A stretch of 64,000 bases of DNA. It comes from Bacteroidales bacterium. Lineage in GTDB: Bacteria; Bacteroidota; Bacteroidia; Bacteroidales; JAADGE01. Each line of letters opens with the position of its first letter. Positions within the stretch are counted from its first letter, which is position 1. The notes beneath the pieces are model-generated. The model was given only the letters and a program-made list of their open reading frames with translations. It had not been told where the DNA came from and made no database searches. The stretch covers positions 1 through 64,000 of the forward strand of contig JAIORQ010000065.1 of NCBI GenBank assembly GCA_021108035.1. The letters run 5' to 3'. Both the position numbers and the translations under genes were made by a program. Shown one piece after another: positions 2,936 through 42,012 of the stretch.

Positions 2936-4693
2936 ATGATTTCAAAAAAATACAACATATCATTCTCAATAGACGACATTGAGCAATTGGCTACCGGTAG
3001 TAGTTTTGAAAGAGGCGAAGATTATTTTCATTCAGGTAATGTGCGAGATGTTGTAAAAACCGGAAACCGTTTTGAAGGTATCGTTTACGGTACTCAAAAA
3101 TATAAAGTATATTTAATAGATGAAAATGATGAACTAAATTTAAATTGTAATTGTCCTTATGATTATGGCGGAATTTGCAAGCATTTGGTTGCTTTTGCAT
3201 TAACAATTATAGCCGGCAACTATCAGGAATCGGATGTGCAAGCAGAACCGGCACTTTCTGAAAAAGACTTTAAAAGTATATATTCAAAAATTGCAAGCAA
3301 AAAGAAATTACATTTTTTAAAACAATTATTAGACAGAGATAATTATTTGAAACTACAATTTATTGCATTTTCAAAAGAAAAAAACGAAAATTTAGACAAT
3401 ATTATAGGAGAGAAATTGGAAGACGTAAAATTTGAAATTAATGCAAAATTATCAAATATTGATTTTGATGATCTAAGGTATGATTATGATACCGGATACG
3501 GCTATGGAGATTATTATGATAATATGTATGATACTGCCGTTGATGAAATCAAAAATGCTTTTGAACCATATATAAATTCTATTCACTCGTATATTAAAAA
3601 AGGTAACTTATTAGATGCTGTTCGCATAATGTTAGGTTTGTACGAAGGTGCTCAAAACTTGCCGGAATTAGACAATGAAGATTATGTTTTTGACGGTGAG
3701 TACAATTCAAGCGTACAATCAATTATTGATGAGTATTTTAATGATTTTTCGTCGGCAATATGTAATATTGTCAAATCTGATAAAGCTGTTATTGAGGTTT
3801 TGTCGTTAATTTTTAAAAGAATTGCACTTTATAACAATCAAGATGTTTCTGAAGAGGATGAGATAATCTGTCATATTAAAGATTTTGAAAAATTGTTTCA
3901 CTCGCTTATTTTAAATAAAGAAACAGCAGACTTTTTATATTATAAATTGCAAGAGTTTAATTTAGAATTATTAGCATCTGCATTTATTATATTAAACATT
4001 GCAGAAGTATCCGGTAATGAGAAATTATGGATAGAAACTGCCGAAACTTATGCTAATTTGGATAGTAAAATCACACGACAATTATTAGAAAAGTATCATT
4101 CAAAAAAGTTAGTTGCTGATTTTAACAGAATTGCCGAAATGGCTTTTAAAAATTGGGCTAATGAATTTGATAAATTCCTTATTGACAATTTAGACAAAAA
4201 ACAGCAAGAATATTTATATATTAAGGCACTTAAAAATTATGTTTCAAAAAAACACAGTATTAAATATTATCACATATTAAAAACTTATTTTACAAAAACA
4301 GAAACAGATAATTTTATAAATAAATTTAAAGACACTTATAATACTGTGTTTTATGTTCAACTTTTAGAAATTGAAAAACGACATCAAGAAATATTAGATT
4401 GTGTGAATAAAAATAAAGAATCTTATGAGATAGAAAAACTGATTAAACCAATAATAAATATTTATCCTGCTGAATGTTTTTCAATAATTGTTGAAATAAA
4501 TAATGCGGCACTTACCGGCTACAAAAGAGACCGAAGGACTTATCAAACAATGACTAAAACATTAAAATTGTTAAAAAAAATTACTTCCAAAAAAACTGAA
4601 ACGAGTTTGTATTTAAAGGAATTATATAATCATAAACCTAATTTGCCTGCTTTAAAAGATGAAATGCGAAAAGCTGATTTAATTACCGTTTAA
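2936..4693 (+). CDS. SWIM zinc-finger protein
   Basis: The protein has 585 residues. Near the N terminus (about residues 65-85) is a SWIM-type zinc-binding signature CxCx(n)CxH: CNCPYDYGGICKHLVAFAL. The SWIM domain is known to bind DNA or protein in bacterial SNF2-associated proteins and many hypothetical proteins. The remaining 480 residues are helical, Lys/Glu-rich and without another recognisable domain; they resemble the alpha-solenoid tails of stand-alone SWIM proteins. No SNF2 helicase gene is adjacent. The gene ends TAATGA, overlapping what looks like the start of a decayed downstream frame. Confidence 0.7.
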   Translation: MISKKYNISFSIDDIEQLATGSSFERGEDYFHSGNVRDVVKTGNRFEGIVYGTQKYKVYLIDENDELNLNCNCPYDYGGICKHLVAFALTIIAGNYQESDVQAEPALSEKDFKSIYSKIASKKKLHFLKQLLDRDNYLKLQFIAFSKEKNENLDNIIGEKLEDVKFEINAKLSNIDFDDLRYDYDTGYGYGDYYDNMYDTAVDEIKNAFEPYINSIHSYIKKGNLLDAVRIMLGLYEGAQNLPELDNEDYVFDGEYNSSVQSIIDEYFNDFSSAICNIVKSDKAVIEVLSLIFKRIALYNNQDVSEEDEIICHIKDFEKLFHSLILNKETADFLYYKLQEFNLELLASAFIILNIAEVSGNEKLWIETAETYANLDSKITRQLLEKYHSKKLVADFNRIAEMAFKNWANEFDKFLIDNLDKKQQEYLYIKALKNYVSKKHSIKYYHILKTYFTKTETDNFINKFKDTYNTVFYVQLLEIEKRHQEILDCVNKNKESYEIEKLIKPIINIYPAECFSIIVEINNAALTGYKRDRRTYQTMTKTLKLLKKITSKKTETSLYLKELYNHKPNLPALKDEMRKADLITV

Positions 4694-37144: not shown

Positions 37145-38158
37145 ATGAGTGATAATAAATATACATTCAAAGATTTTAAAAGTGATCAGGAAGTAAGATG
37201 GTGTCCGGGATGTGGTGACACTGCTGTACTGATGTCAGTTCAAAAAGCAATGGCTGAATTAGATCATAAAAAAGAAGATTATGCAGTTATTTCAGGTATC
37301 GGATGTTCTTCCAGATTTCCGTATTATATGAATACATACGGTTTTCACGGAATTCACGGTCGTGCAGGTGTTTTGGCATCAGGAGTAAAAACAGCAAATC
37401 CGAAATTAAGTGTTTGGCAAATAACCGGCGACGGTGATGCTCTGGCAATCGGAGGAAACCATTTTATTCATGAAATAAGAAGAAATATTAACCTGAATAT
37501 TGTACTTTTTAACAATCAAATCTATGGTTTAACAAAAGGACAATATTCACCGACATCATTATTTGGTCAAGTAACAAAAACATCTCCTTACGGTACTGTT
37601 GAACAACCTTTTCACCCCGGGGAATTAGTTCTGGGAGCTCAAGGAAAATTCTTTGCAAGATCAATTGATACTAAAGTAAAAGAAACTACAGATATTTTAA
37701 TTGAAGCTGATAAGCATGTCGGTACATCTGTTGTTGAAATTTTACAAAACTGTGTCATTTATAATGATGGTGCATATAATAATATAACATCTAAAGAGAC
37801 AAGGGATGATAATCAAATATGGCTTGAACACGGAAAACCATTGTTATTCGGAAAAGATAAGCAAAAAGGATTAATTGTTGACGGAATGAAATTAAGAGTT
37901 GTTCATTTAAGTGACCGTATAAGTGAGGAAAATATATTGGTACATGATGCCCATGAACCGGATCCTTCTTTACACTTGGCATTAATAAATATGAGAGTAG
38001 GTCTTGGATTTCCGGTTGCATTCGGTATTATCAGGCAAGTTGAAGCACCTGCATATGATCAATTAATTGAACAACAAATTGAAGAAGTAAAATCAAAATC
38101 AAAAATCAAAAATATGGATGATGTCCTTAATAGTGGCAGCACTTGGGTTGTAAAATAA
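37145..38158 (+). CDS. korB: 2-oxoacid:ferredoxin oxidoreductase, beta subunit (KorB)
   Basis: The 337-residue TPP-binding subunit has VRWCPGCGDTAVLMSVQKAM, GIGCSSRFPYYMNTYGFHG, the diphosphate/Mg motif QITGDGDALAIGGNHFIHEI and NNQIYGLTKGQYSPTS. It partners KorA encoded just upstream. The gene and its terminator are intact, but the last 50 codons and the terminator occur again, diverged, at 40062-40266 on the far side of the fic gene. This suggests that the present 3' end, or the whole operon end, was replaced by recombination with incoming DNA. Confidence 0.93.
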   Translation: MSDNKYTFKDFKSDQEVRWCPGCGDTAVLMSVQKAMAELDHKKEDYAVISGIGCSSRFPYYMNTYGFHGIHGRAGVLASGVKTANPKLSVWQITGDGDALAIGGNHFIHEIRRNINLNIVLFNNQIYGLTKGQYSPTSLFGQVTKTSPYGTVEQPFHPGELVLGAQGKFFARSIDTKVKETTDILIEADKHVGTSVVEILQNCVIYNDGAYNNITSKETRDDNQIWLEHGKPLLFGKDKQKGLIVDGMKLRVVHLSDRISEENILVHDAHEPDPSLHLALINMRVGLGFPVAFGIIRQVEAPAYDQLIEQQIEEVKSKSKIKNMDDVLNSGSTWVVK

Positions 38159-38181
38159 TTATTTGATTTAAACGAATAAAA

Positions 38182-38211
38182 AAAATGCGAACTTTTTGGT
38201 TCGCATTTTTT
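38182..38211 (+). terminator. Terminator of korAB
   Basis: AAAATGCGAAC and GTTCGCATTTT make an 11-bp stem with a 6-base T/G loop and a T-run. A near copy is found at 40236-40266 after the korB remnant. Confidence 0.88.
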
Positions 38212-38229
38212 GTTAGATTTTATAATGAA

Positions 38230-38250
38230 GAGTCCGCTCCGAAAAGTAAT
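38230..38250. repeat. Solo transposon end related to element A
   Basis: GAGTCCGCTCCGAAAAGTAA at 38230-38249 matches the right end of element A (GAGTCCACTTCGAAAAGTAA, reverse complement of 7863-7882) at 18 of 20 positions. No partner end is visible nearby, so it is a decayed or one-ended remnant. It sits at the junction between korB and the fic gene, where foreign DNA seems to have entered. Confidence 0.55.
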
Positions 38251-38362
38251 TTATGATTTACAAAAATAATATAATTATAAAAAAAAAATCTTAAAGATTT
38301 CTGAAAAACTCAAAGGGTTATAATAAGTTTCGAATTTTGAGAAACATTAAAGTGTCTTACAA

Positions 38363-39841
38363 TCAGGGCATTATATTTAATTTTCCTTCAGAGGGTTCTG
38401 TAAATGCATTGCTTTTATCCAAAATGTTTTGCATTTTATCCATATTATTTCCGGTTACAGTATGACTGAATTCTTGAGCTTTTGTAAGCATACGAATATA
38501 AGGTTTTGGGTCATTATTCCTTGTAAGCCGTCTTAATGTCAATAAATAATCTTCTCTGAAAACAGTCGGAATTATGATTTTTGTTTGATTTTCAGAAGTA
38601 AGTTCCGCATTCATCATTATTCGTGCTATACGTCCGTTGCCGTCTAAAAACGGATGTATTTCACTAATAATAAACATCATATACACTGCTTTTGCAAATG
38701 GATGTTTTATTACTCTGTAAAAATCAAAGCTTTTACTAATTGTTCCTTTAACTAATTCTTTATCAACAAATGCTGTTTTACCTGCAAAGTTATTTTTATT
38801 TTTAAACAGTCCGGGGTTTGAGTTTTTTCTTGCATTTAATATAACTCTGTGCCTGTATTGTAATATCTTTATAAAATCTTCGACAGAATCGGGAATAACA
38901 GACATTTCTTTTAAATTTGAAACTATTTTATAAGTCCCTAAAATATCATGAGAATCTTCATTTCTTGCAGATAAGGGTAGTTGCGATTTAATAATTTGTT
39001 TTGCTTCATCAATATGAAATTCAGTCCCTTCAATATAATTTGAGAAATAACTTTCGAAAAAAGCAAAATTTTTAAAAGCATTTGTACTTATATTCTTCTC
39101 TTTTCTTATAATAAAATCTTGTTTATTTAATTCATAAAAAAGTATTTCAAAAAGTTCCAATCTTGCTTTATCATACGGATGTCCGAATGCTCTTGCAGCA
39201 GCGAGAGGAGATTTCAGGATTTTTGAAGGATGTGTTGACAGCAAAGCACTGATTATTTTGTTTAGTTTTATAAACTCATCTTTCATGTGAAGTTTGCCGG
39301 CAATTAATCTTGCTTTATCTCTAATTTTATTTAACTCCTCTTCACCATATATTTTTATTATTTTTTCAAGTTTTTCTTCAATTAAAATACGAGACAAAGT
39401 TTTTGAGTTTGCTCCGATCTTTCTCGAAATTTGCATATTTTCTAAAAAAGCCCTTGATTGTTGCGAAACATAAAGGTCTTCGGAAAATTGAGTATCTCCT
39501 TCAATCGGTCCGCTACCCTCTAAAAATCTTATTTCAATACCCGGTAATTTTACTTTTCGAGTATATTTGTAAGTTACAAAAATTTGACTTGAAGTTGTAG
39601 GTCTGAATTCTAATGCTGATCTGTGACTTAAAACAGAATTAGGATATAACTTGCCAAGTATAAAAAACAAATTTCTTTTAATAATAGCTTCCGGTTTATC
39701 ATCAAAATCAGAAGTATATATTCTCGGAGCAATTTTTCTTATTTTCTTTTCTTTTTTAAGTTTAGATATTTGTTTTGAAACGGCAGAGTTTGAAGAAGCA
39801 AAAATTATCTCTTGCAAGTGAATCGGTATTTTTTTTTCCAT
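38363..39841 (-). CDS. Fic-domain protein with N-terminal AbiEi-like winged-helix region
   Basis: The protein has 492 residues. Residues 1-100 resemble the AbiEi-type antitoxin/regulator N terminus (SNSAVSKQISKLKKEKKIRK, APRIYTSDFDDKPEAIIKRN). The Fic core motif is HPFLDGNGRIAR at 396-407, complete with the catalytic His and the nucleotide-binding Arg. An inhibitory (S/T)xxxE(G/N) motif, SNYIEG, lies at 267-272 ahead of the core, as in self-inhibited Fic enzymes that transfer AMP to target proteins. The fusion puts a DNA-binding-like domain and a toxin-like enzyme in one chain. The gene lies between korB and a second korB 3' end, so it is probably acquired. Confidence 0.85.
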   Translation of the reverse strand: MEKKIPIHLQEIIFASSNSAVSKQISKLKKEKKIRKIAPRIYTSDFDDKPEAIIKRNLFFILGKLYPNSVLSHRSALEFRPTTSSQIFVTYKYTRKVKLPGIEIRFLEGSGPIEGDTQFSEDLYVSQQSRAFLENMQISRKIGANSKTLSRILIEEKLEKIIKIYGEEELNKIRDKARLIAGKLHMKDEFIKLNKIISALLSTHPSKILKSPLAAARAFGHPYDKARLELFEILFYELNKQDFIIRKEKNISTNAFKNFAFFESYFSNYIEGTEFHIDEAKQIIKSQLPLSARNEDSHDILGTYKIVSNLKEMSVIPDSVEDFIKILQYRHRVILNARKNSNPGLFKNKNNFAGKTAFVDKELVKGTISKSFDFYRVIKHPFAKAVYMMFIISEIHPFLDGNGRIARIMMNAELTSENQTKIIIPTVFREDYLLTLRRLTRNNDPKPYIRMLTKAQEFSHTVTGNNMDKMQNILDKSNAFTEPSEGKLNIMP

Positions 39842-40061
39842 TATAATTTTATTTTATACAAAATTAGAAAAAATATTCCGGTAAGATGTGCTTTTTGGAA
39901 AAAAATTTCCGGTAATATGCTGTGGATACAATATTTCTGCAATAAATAAATTTGATCTGAAAATTATTAATTCAATTACAAAATTATAATTAAATTATTG
40001 ATAATACAAGCATTCAAGTTTGTTGATAATAAAAATTCCTGCGGAATTATGAAAACCGGCA

Positions 40062-40214
40062 GGGTTTCCTGTCGCATTCGGTATTATCAGGCAAGTTGAA
40101 GCACCTGCATATGATCAATTAATTGATCAACAAATTGAAGAAGTAAAATCAAAGTCTAAAATCAAAAATATGGATGATGTACTTAACAGCGGCAGTACTT
40201 GGGTTGTTGAATAA
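40062..40214 (+). pseudogene. Second, diverged 3' end of korB (50 codons)
   Basis: The stretch aligns without gaps to 38006-38158 of korB, ending at a matching stop codon. I count 12 differences in 153 bases; ten are silent and two change residues (Glu to Asp, Lys to Glu). The copy keeps the reading frame and the terminator, but lacks the first 287 codons. The excess of silent changes means both ends evolved under selection in separate lineages before being brought together, so this is the leftover of a resident or incoming korB allele rather than a decaying tandem copy. Confidence 0.9.
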
Positions 40215-40235
40215 AGATTCTGATAATTTAAATAA

Positions 40236-40266
40236 AAAATGCGAACTTTCCGGTTCGCATTTTTTT
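40236..40266 (+). terminator. Terminator copy behind the korB remnant
   Basis: AAAATGCGAAC/GTTCGCATTTTTT hairpin, like the korAB terminator at 38182-38211 but with loop TTTCCG. The homology of remnant and genuine korB therefore extends through the terminator. Confidence 0.8.
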
Positions 40267-40355: not shown

Positions 40356-41891
40356 TTAATATTTAGCAACTCTCTCTATCCATTTTAGCATAAATAACAT
40401 AGTTGCCATTGAAATAACACATACAACTACAAATAATCCCCATGTCATCCACAGTGGTATTGATTCGTACATAATAGCTCCGATGAATAATAAACCGTTA
40501 CCGAGTGCAGTAGCTCCAAGCCAGCCGCCTTGCATCAATCCTTGATATTGCGGGGGTGCAACTTTTGATACAAATGAAATACCAAGAGGACTTATAAATA
40601 ACTCTGCAACCGTCATTATAAAATATGTTCCCATTAATAAGAACGGAGTTACCTTTCTTATTTCTTCAAGTGGTGTTCCTCCGCTTTGAGGGTCTATTGA
40701 TGAGAATAAAGGCAGCCCTATTGAACCCAAAGACATTACAACATAGCCTAATGCAGCTATAAACATACCGATTGCTATTTTTTTAGGAGTAGAAGGCTCA
40801 TAACCTTTAGTTTTAAGCCAGCCAAAAATTCCGATAATAACAGGAGTTAAAAATACAACAAAAAATGGATTTGTGGCTTGAAATGATTCTACTGATATAT
40901 TAAAGAAACTCATTTTTAACGCTGTATAATCTCGTGCAAAAAATGTTAGTGTAAGTCCGTTTTGATGAAAAGAAAACCAAAAGAAAATAGCAATTCCGAA
41001 TACTGCAAATAAAGCATACATTCGTTGTCTTACTTCTTTTATGTCCATTTTAATATCTTCAGAATTGTCTTTTTTATTATCTGTTATTTTTGAAACACTT
41101 TTAGGATTCGGGAAGTGTTTTTTATTCATAATATATACAACAAGAGAAATAGCCAGTGCAATAATAGCTATTGCAAATGCGTAATGAAAGCCTGTTGTAA
41201 AAACATTCAAATACTCATTGGAAAATGTAGTTAAATCAGTAACAGTAGTACCACTTGCCTCTGTTGCCATTGTTTTGAAAATTTCAGTTGTTTTGGGTGT
41301 AATAGTTCCTTCCAAATGAGAATGAGCTATAGCCGGAAGTCCTGCATCATATTCAAAACCATTATTTCGTAACCACCAGTTTCTAATACCAATAGCAGTA
41401 AAAGGAGCAAAAATTGCACCTACATTTATAAACATATAAAAAAGCTGAAAGCCGGAATCTCTCTTTTCAGTATCATAACCTTTGTCATACATTTGACCTA
41501 CTAATGCTTGCAAATTACCTTTAAATAAGCCGTTACCAAATGCAATGACAAACAATGCAATACAAGTTAATGTTAAATACAATGCTTTATTCGGAACCGG
41601 AGTAGGAGTTGGTATTGCTATTAATACATAGCCTAATGCCATAACAATTAAACCAATCATTATAGTACCTTTAAAATTTCTTGTTCTGTCAGCAATAATT
41701 CCGCCGACTAACGATAATATATATATTAAGGCATAAAATACGGAGTATATATAACCTGCATTTTCTCCTCCTAAGCCAAATTTAGCCTGAAGAAATAAGA
41801 CTAATATTGCCATCATGGTATAGAAACCAAATCGTTCCCCCATATTAGCTAAAGCTGCGGCTATTAGTCCTTTAGGATGTCCTTTAAACAT
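40356..41891 (-). CDS. POT-family peptide MFS transporter
   Basis: The 511-residue protein starts at the ATG at 41891 (MFKGHPKGLIAAALANMGER, the family's typical beginning with the ExxER-type signature GERFGFYTMMA); a longer in-frame start at 41984 would overlap the neighbouring terminator. Further POT motifs are YALIYILSLVGGIIADRTRN and FQLFYMFINVGAIFAPFTAI. It imports di- and tripeptides by proton symport across the inner membrane. A large insertion between helices 6 and 7 (about residues 185-265) is Thr-rich. It sits downstream of the sulfur operon but has a terminator in between. Confidence 0.9.
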   Translation of the reverse strand: MFKGHPKGLIAAALANMGERFGFYTMMAILVLFLQAKFGLGGENAGYIYSVFYALIYILSLVGGIIADRTRNFKGTIMIGLIVMALGYVLIAIPTPTPVPNKALYLTLTCIALFVIAFGNGLFKGNLQALVGQMYDKGYDTEKRDSGFQLFYMFINVGAIFAPFTAIGIRNWWLRNNGFEYDAGLPAIAHSHLEGTITPKTTEIFKTMATEASGTTVTDLTTFSNEYLNVFTTGFHYAFAIAIIALAISLVVYIMNKKHFPNPKSVSKITDNKKDNSEDIKMDIKEVRQRMYALFAVFGIAIFFWFSFHQNGLTLTFFARDYTALKMSFFNISVESFQATNPFFVVFLTPVIIGIFGWLKTKGYEPSTPKKIAIGMFIAALGYVVMSLGSIGLPLFSSIDPQSGGTPLEEIRKVTPFLLMGTYFIMTVAELFISPLGISFVSKVAPPQYQGLMQGGWLGATALGNGLLFIGAIMYESIPLWMTWGLFVVVCVISMATMLFMLKWIERVAKY

Positions 41892-41982
41892 AATTATTAA
41901 TTTTAATTGATTTATACTAATTTTAAAATTCAGACAAAAATAAAAATAATATTTTATTAATACCCTGATTAAGGTTTTATTC

Positions 41983-42012
41983 AAAAAAAAACCTTCTTTT
42001 TAAAAGAAGGCT
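41983..42012 (-). terminator. Terminator of the sulfur operon
   Basis: On the minus strand AGCCTTCTTTTAAAAAGAAG is followed by GT and a run of T. It ends the SQR-DUF1641-TusE-DsrE transcript before the peptide transporter gene. Confidence 0.85.

Follow-up and report, generated by a model that had tools for sequence, protein, structure and literature searches.

A solitary fic gene between duplicated korB ends: probable insertion with long target duplication and import from a relative

Introduction

How does a single fic gene come to lie between an intact korB gene and a second, diverged korB 3′ end? The locus is part of the window, i.e., the whole 64,000-nucleotide stretch of Bacteroidales DNA analyzed here, which represents contig C65 of G000, a draft genome of 4.96 Mb. 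The movement of small transposase-free defense genes between chromosomes is poorly explained. An earlier note on this DNA had proposed recombination with a relative that carried the korB end plus fic, with the former end being left behind, instead of a local duplication. Here, we compared the locus with related genomes, all of which are draft assemblies consisting of many contigs.

Results

The korB 3′ end and its terminator are duplicated around one gene

Intact korB (positions 37145 to 38158, forward strand) encodes the 337-amino-acid beta subunit of a 2-oxoacid:ferredoxin oxidoreductase. Its last 153 bases (38006 to 38158, forward strand; proximal copy) recur downstream as a distal fragment (40062 to 40214, forward strand) that comprises 51 codons including the stop codon and has no start codon. 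Both copies align without gaps and are identical at 141/153 positions, with 12 differences (92.2%), in agreement with the match of about 92% given in the earlier note. The repeat is not due to chance, since blastn returned an E value of 5e-68 for this pair. Each copy is followed by a terminator hairpin on the forward strand (38180 to 38211 and 40234 to 40265); the hairpins are 94% alike, as expected from the terminator duplication described before, and the duplicated stretch of gene end plus terminator spans about 206 bp. A search of G000 revealed only two copies of the korB end, both at the fic locus.

The solitary inserted fic gene (38363 to 39841, reverse strand) codes for a 492-amino-acid protein with an AbiEi-like N terminus and a Fic domain. 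The region upstream of fic, which reaches the repeat (39842 to 40061), contains no second gene, and among the open reading frames of the window, fic was the only plausible gene between the two korB-end repeats. The gene following the second terminator encodes a POT family transporter (40356 to 41984, reverse strand), likely the original downstream neighbor of korB.

The differences between the korB ends are concentrated at third codon positions (1, 0, and 11 changes at positions 1, 2, and 3). A recount yielded 10 silent changes, the number given previously, and two replacements (E to D and, at the last codon, K to E). An even spread over the codon positions, which would favor an in-place duplication, was not seen. 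For the 17 other repeat pairs described below, the pooled changes were distributed 33/30/69 over codon positions 1/2/3 (52% third), as expected for one selected and one drifting copy; therefore, in-place duplication is the usual course. The third-position bias at korB (11/12) was higher than that of these repeats (69/132; p 0.012). Judged by its base changes, the korB pair is atypical and bears the mark of selection on both copies, which upholds the view that both ends had been under selection.

The fic product resembles single-gene defense candidates

The Fic domain was detected by Pfam with 47.7 bits (cutoff, 24), and the translation contains HPFLDGNGR, which corresponds to the HPFxxGNGR motif, as well as the inhibitory-type motif SNYIEG. 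PADLOC placed the protein near SoFic (a match with E 7e-18 that covers part of the protein) and PDC-S04, with a weak AbiEi match at the N terminus. The score against the NCBIfam SoFic equivalog NF046030 was 24.3 bits, below the curated cutoff of 550. An AbiE type IV toxin-antitoxin system was rejected as an identity, as the AbiEi match is weak, an adjacent AbiEii gene is absent, and the insert holds no second gene. A restriction-modification (R-M) system was rejected as well, given the presence of the Fic domain and the absence of a methylase and a restriction nuclease.

Homologs with the AbiEi-Fic arrangement from the same order (45 to 65% identity) had a flanking direct repeat in 7/14 loci, the window counted; locus L267 is an eighth case if its neighboring gene is included. 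At one of the order-level loci, the mdh 3′ end is repeated with 65/66 identical bases. In a phylum-wide sample, flanking repeats were found at 8/26 loci, including a 283-bp repeat of an apparent hsdR 3′ end together with its terminator. Some repeats are intergenic, riboswitch, or tRNA-like sequences and may have other origins. At locus L395 (G394), two cobalamin riboswitches (793 to 979 and 3319 to 3506), present in 341-bp near-identical copies, flank the Fic homolog, and at L460 (G573) the homolog lies between two tRNA-like 3′ ends inside a 186-bp repeat.

Relatives show an empty korB site and a second cargo

The sister species G010 shares 96.5% DNA identity with G000 over a 3.2-kb alignment covering korA and korB. 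Its korB gene and terminator are followed by an AAA_14-DUF4143 gene on the opposite strand and a korB 3′ fragment that is decayed and has a terminator of its own; beyond the latter lies the end of another gene that looks like the AAA_14-DUF4143 insert. PADLOC identified the insert as PDC-S01 (E 1e-137), and both Pfam domains, AAA_14 and DUF4143, are present. The flank of the fragment is common to G000 and G010 up to the terminator and just beyond.

Relatives of the same genus with 73 to 82% DNA identity carry a single korB end with varied neighbors. In G005, the korB site is empty, with a single copy and no insert, and about 35 bases past the korB terminator, sequence matching the POT-side flank of the window begins (G005:C15:72214-72279). 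The contig ends soon after this, and the POT gene itself is not visible. The suggested check of whether korB directly precedes the POT gene in relatives was thereby positive for the flank, as far as the contig extends. From this alignment, the original state was likely korB followed by the POT flank. A scan of genome contigs did not find a close relative (best match, 71% protein identity), and a donor strain, a circle, or an event in progress was not seen among the genomes compared.

Both korB ends are mosaics

The mosaic was judged at 12 sites and from two close genomes, with the sister species G010 and the outgroup G005 as references. At repeat codons 1, 3, 4, 22, 31, and 32, intact korB has the G010 state and the fragment is altered, showing the G005 state at codon 3. 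At codons 42, 43, 45, 49, and 50, the fragment is native and intact korB is altered; at codon 40, each sequence has its own base. The fragment is foreign over codons 1 to 32 (its first 96 nt) and native over codons 42 to 50, the terminator (which matches the flank of the G010 fragment and G005), and the POT-side flank, so that its reading as a former end that was simply left behind is not supported. Intact korB is native as far as codons 33 to 39 of the repeat, to about position 38124, and its last ~34 nt are foreign. The breakpoint in korB that had been suggested as a check was found by comparison with G010, from which 22/980 of the first sites and 7/34 of the last differ (Poisson p 1.5e-5). 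The six changes within the first part of the fragment without exception affect third codon positions, so this part evolved in a working korB.

Both copies switch within the same interval, codons 33 to 41: korB is native before it and foreign after it, and the fragment shows the reverse. These opposed switches indicate that DNA of a relative entered via homologous recombination, and the import from a relative is likewise indicated by the foreign korB stretches at the two inner edges. The sequences themselves display the mosaic, and the import event is its probable origin. The foreign block would extend from 38125 to 40157 (last codons of the proximal copy, terminator, fic, and fragment codons 1 to 32), and the mosaic together with the statistics would place the switch points within 38102 to 38130 and 40158 to 40186.

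A single double crossover with a relative carrying the korB end plus fic has to be weighed here. The fragment would then be the unchanged former end, and the duplication would be a by-product of imperfect integration. Such an event would explain the foreign korB tail and the silent-site bias; however, the fragment also looks foreign over its first 96 nt, and the same architecture is found with native, even exact, duplications at other sites, making it unlikely. Alternatively, an insertion with long target duplication could have taken place in this lineage, with both copies then drifting in place and no import. Most of the other repeat pairs look like this (pooled, 52% third-position changes), but at korB, 11/12 changes are at the third position, native and foreign states are spatially fully segregated, and 7 changes fall in the last 34 nt versus 22 in 980. 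We consider this course of events quite unlikely.

Under the import that we favor, the shared switch interval would be the expected trace of a single crossover between the chromosome and a circle with fic and one foreign korB end. An already filled site that received one uninterrupted foreign block (38125 to 40157) by allelic exchange would fit too, and the shared interval would then be a coincidence. The G010 fragment has some states in common with the intact korB end of G000; later conversion or exchange between korB-end copies is possible.

AAA_14 genes carry the same scar across the genus

Neighborhoods around AAA_14 genes were fetched, and for every large gene, the 1-kb sequences on its two sides were compared. 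In G000, G010, and G005, a long flanking direct repeat was present at 12/55 AAA_14 genes versus 1/103 other genes, and in further genomes of the genus at 12/39 versus 2/68 (pooled over the genus, 24/94 versus 3/171, p = 2e-9). The three exceptions also look like P-loop ATPases by sequence. The remaining 70/94 AAA_14 genes have no flanking repeat; they may be old insertions or may have been inserted otherwise. PADLOC assigns the AAA_14 inserts to PDC-S01.

In many cases, the repeat consists of an intact gene copy and a fragment copy, while several other pairs are intergenic. Targets are found at 3′ and 5′ ends alike, and the target gene is whole on one side. The repeats at sites other than korB measure 32 to 290 bp. 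Homologous AAA_14 units at different sites and in different species are alike only within the gene and roughly 50 to 100 bp (gene plus promoter). Comparison of related AAA_14 units across sites and inspection of the open reading frames of the fic insert revealed no shared end sequence, inverted repeats, or transposase at the unit ends.

These features bear on a further explanation, namely that an integrase-driven element entered a gene 3′ end (as for prophage e14 in icd) and left a remnant, with the att core in identical codons 33 to 39 and the integrase lost. The reciprocal mosaic would be the outcome of such an integration. However, neither an integrase gene between the korB repeats nor an att-type core was found, 5′ ends are also targeted, the repeat length varies from 32 to 290 bp, and the conserved unit is one gene; a remnant of this kind is therefore very unlikely.

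Only at korB/fic did an unbiased scan of 464 kb of G000 detect a gene end that was clearly duplicated, with its fragment standing apart, and gene-end duplication as a general genome property was rejected on these grounds. The other repeat pairs in the scan were intergenic repeats, paralogs, or a CRISPR array. Intergenic direct-repeat pairs of 180 to 350 bp with 82 to 92% identity (L306:3280-7890, L311:12075-13684, and L312:9977-11671 in G000) enclose single genes that are unknown or of lipoprotein type, and may represent the same insertion mode with other cargo. The CRISPR array (L307:11900-19535; G000 C52:91900-99535) has about 36 repeat copies with a period of roughly 70 bp and adjoins genes resembling, by sequence, cas1, a reverse transcriptase, and a type III effector. 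On the same contig (L235:2222-3360; G000 C52), a 105-bp repeat with 98% identity surrounds an unknown gene of 209 amino acids that adjoins an AAA_14 gene. A polysaccharide-type cluster in G006 (L353; C92:2500-22400) has several AAA_14 genes among glycosyltransferases, four of them with flanking repeats of 42 to 138 bp.

The same gene ends are used by different cargo

Different cargo was found at the same ends of korB, hutI, hisH, and one glycosyltransferase gene. The hisH 5′ end is duplicated in G000 and, with a different insert, in G005; the hutI 3′ end is duplicated in G000, G001, G006, and G007. Further targets comprise, among others, ends of glycosyltransferase genes and a radical-SAM gene. 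The duplication is most evident at hutI of G007, where the repeat of 61 bp is exact and the last hutI residues and the stop codon are now derived from the insert. Past the second 61-bp copy, the native hutI-ftcD spacer resumes as in the empty G005 site; this site is also empty in G003 and G004. A 138-bp repeat with two mismatches is present at a glycosyltransferase start in G006, where the working start codon now comes from the junction. The recurrent use of targets suggests either that these sites are permissive or that cargo is exchanged through the repeats. In G000 (L217:2749-3559; C26), the hutI fragment is adjoined by short open reading frames that resemble a VapB/VapC-type pair, along with a GIY-YIG-type frame, and the hutI-ftcD gap seems to have received several small inserts.

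The draft state of the assembly raises the question of a chimera produced by assembly or binning. The same scar occurs in independent assemblies of many species, and empty and filled sites are consistent, which leaves this explanation hardly credible.

Discussion

We explain the locus, with moderate confidence, as the result of two processes. The fic gene, a solitary mobile defense-type gene, would have been put into the korB 3′ end by insertion with long target duplication, and the present allele with its foreign inner edges was probably made in a relative and then imported by homologous recombination. This reading accommodates what the sequences show, namely the duplication, the mosaic, the empty G005 site, and the recurrence of the scar, both in G010 with another cargo and at many other genes. 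Import and duplication are both true, with duplication on insertion and then spread or exchange by recombination. The choice of import over local duplication was not supported, as in-place, even exact, duplications have the same layout elsewhere. The proposed recombination with DNA of a relative holds with respect to the foreign korB tail and the 11/12 bias, but not as a one-off import, given the recurrence of the scar.

Most likely, an incoming gene would be linked to the target at a break with staggered ends or through replicative repair, whereby 30 to 300 bp of the target would be copied to both sides, and the survivors would be insertions in which one side restores the target gene. At korB, about 200 bp (gene end and terminator) would have come to lie on both sides, with korB remaining whole on one side and the other holding a headless fragment that has a terminator of its own. 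Afterwards, the repeats would permit exchange with relatives by ordinary recombination, and korB/fic would record such an exchange. The simplest import would be a single crossover of the circle with fic and one foreign korB end; the alternative would be allelic exchange of the korB-fic-korB′ segment within the conserved korB stretch. What we infer is the circle, the succession of the events, and the enzymes that would produce a staggered duplication. The PD-(D/E)XK nuclease of PDC-S01 was rejected as the driver of its own insertion, which would not explain Fic.

More tentatively, and as a possibility we would not yet favor, the AbiEi-Fic and PDC-S01 single-gene candidates could be mobile units that share a transposase-free insertion duplicating 30 to 300 bp; through the repeats, cargo could be excised, exchanged, or stacked by host recombination, making gene ends swap sites for defense genes. 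The scar provides a simple genomic signature whose occurrences can be counted in any collection of genomes, which makes the mechanism testable.

The models matched by fic and the G010 insert, SoFic and PDC-S04/PDC-S01, are PADLOC single-gene candidates, fic remaining below the NCBIfam SoFic cutoff; both genes are phage defense candidates. PDC-S01, an ATPase fused to a PD-(D/E)XK domain, is the fourth most common defense system in prokaryotes, and validation is still pending for most candidates of this kind (PMC12988326). Our literature search returned no report of SoFic, PDC-S04, or PDC-S01 mobility by target duplication, no useful paper on DUF4143 mobility, and no paper joining PDC-S01 to long target duplication of the R-M type.

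A small toxin-type module between identical direct repeats is also known from Microcystis, where a toxin-antitoxin module is fenced by 152-bp direct repeats (PMC7935541). In the available part of that paper, these repeats lie outside the neighboring gene and have inverted repeats within them, and gene-end duplication is not described.

The korB locus can further be compared with icd. On integration of prophage e14 or phage 21, the incoming DNA brings a new 3′ end of this gene and displaces the old one, and the differences are mostly silent. A new 3′ end from incoming DNA, a displaced old end, and mostly silent changes are likewise seen at korB; in contrast, there is no integrase here, the unit consists of the gene only, and 5′ ends are also targeted.

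R-M systems are the closest in mode of insertion. Long target duplication by these systems was reportedly described by Nobusato in 2000 and Furuta in 2010. According to two later papers, they insert with target duplications that are long and variable, on the order of 100 bp (PMC3874152, PMC3031569). Both situations involve compact defense genes without a transposase, duplications of host sequence as direct repeats on this scale, and an empty site in relatives. Unlike R-M insertions as presented there, the cargo here is a single AbiEi-Fic or PDC-S01 ATPase-nuclease gene, the same host genes take different cargo repeatedly, and korB shows an imported foreign copy. The R-M relatives were already known; new are the cargo, the repeated use of particular target genes, and the mosaic. 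The pattern is solid, and the mechanism is inferred from it. One scar type connects Fic and PDC-S01 to the R-M insertion mode, which suggests that single-gene defense candidates move by a mode of insertion so far described for R-M systems only.
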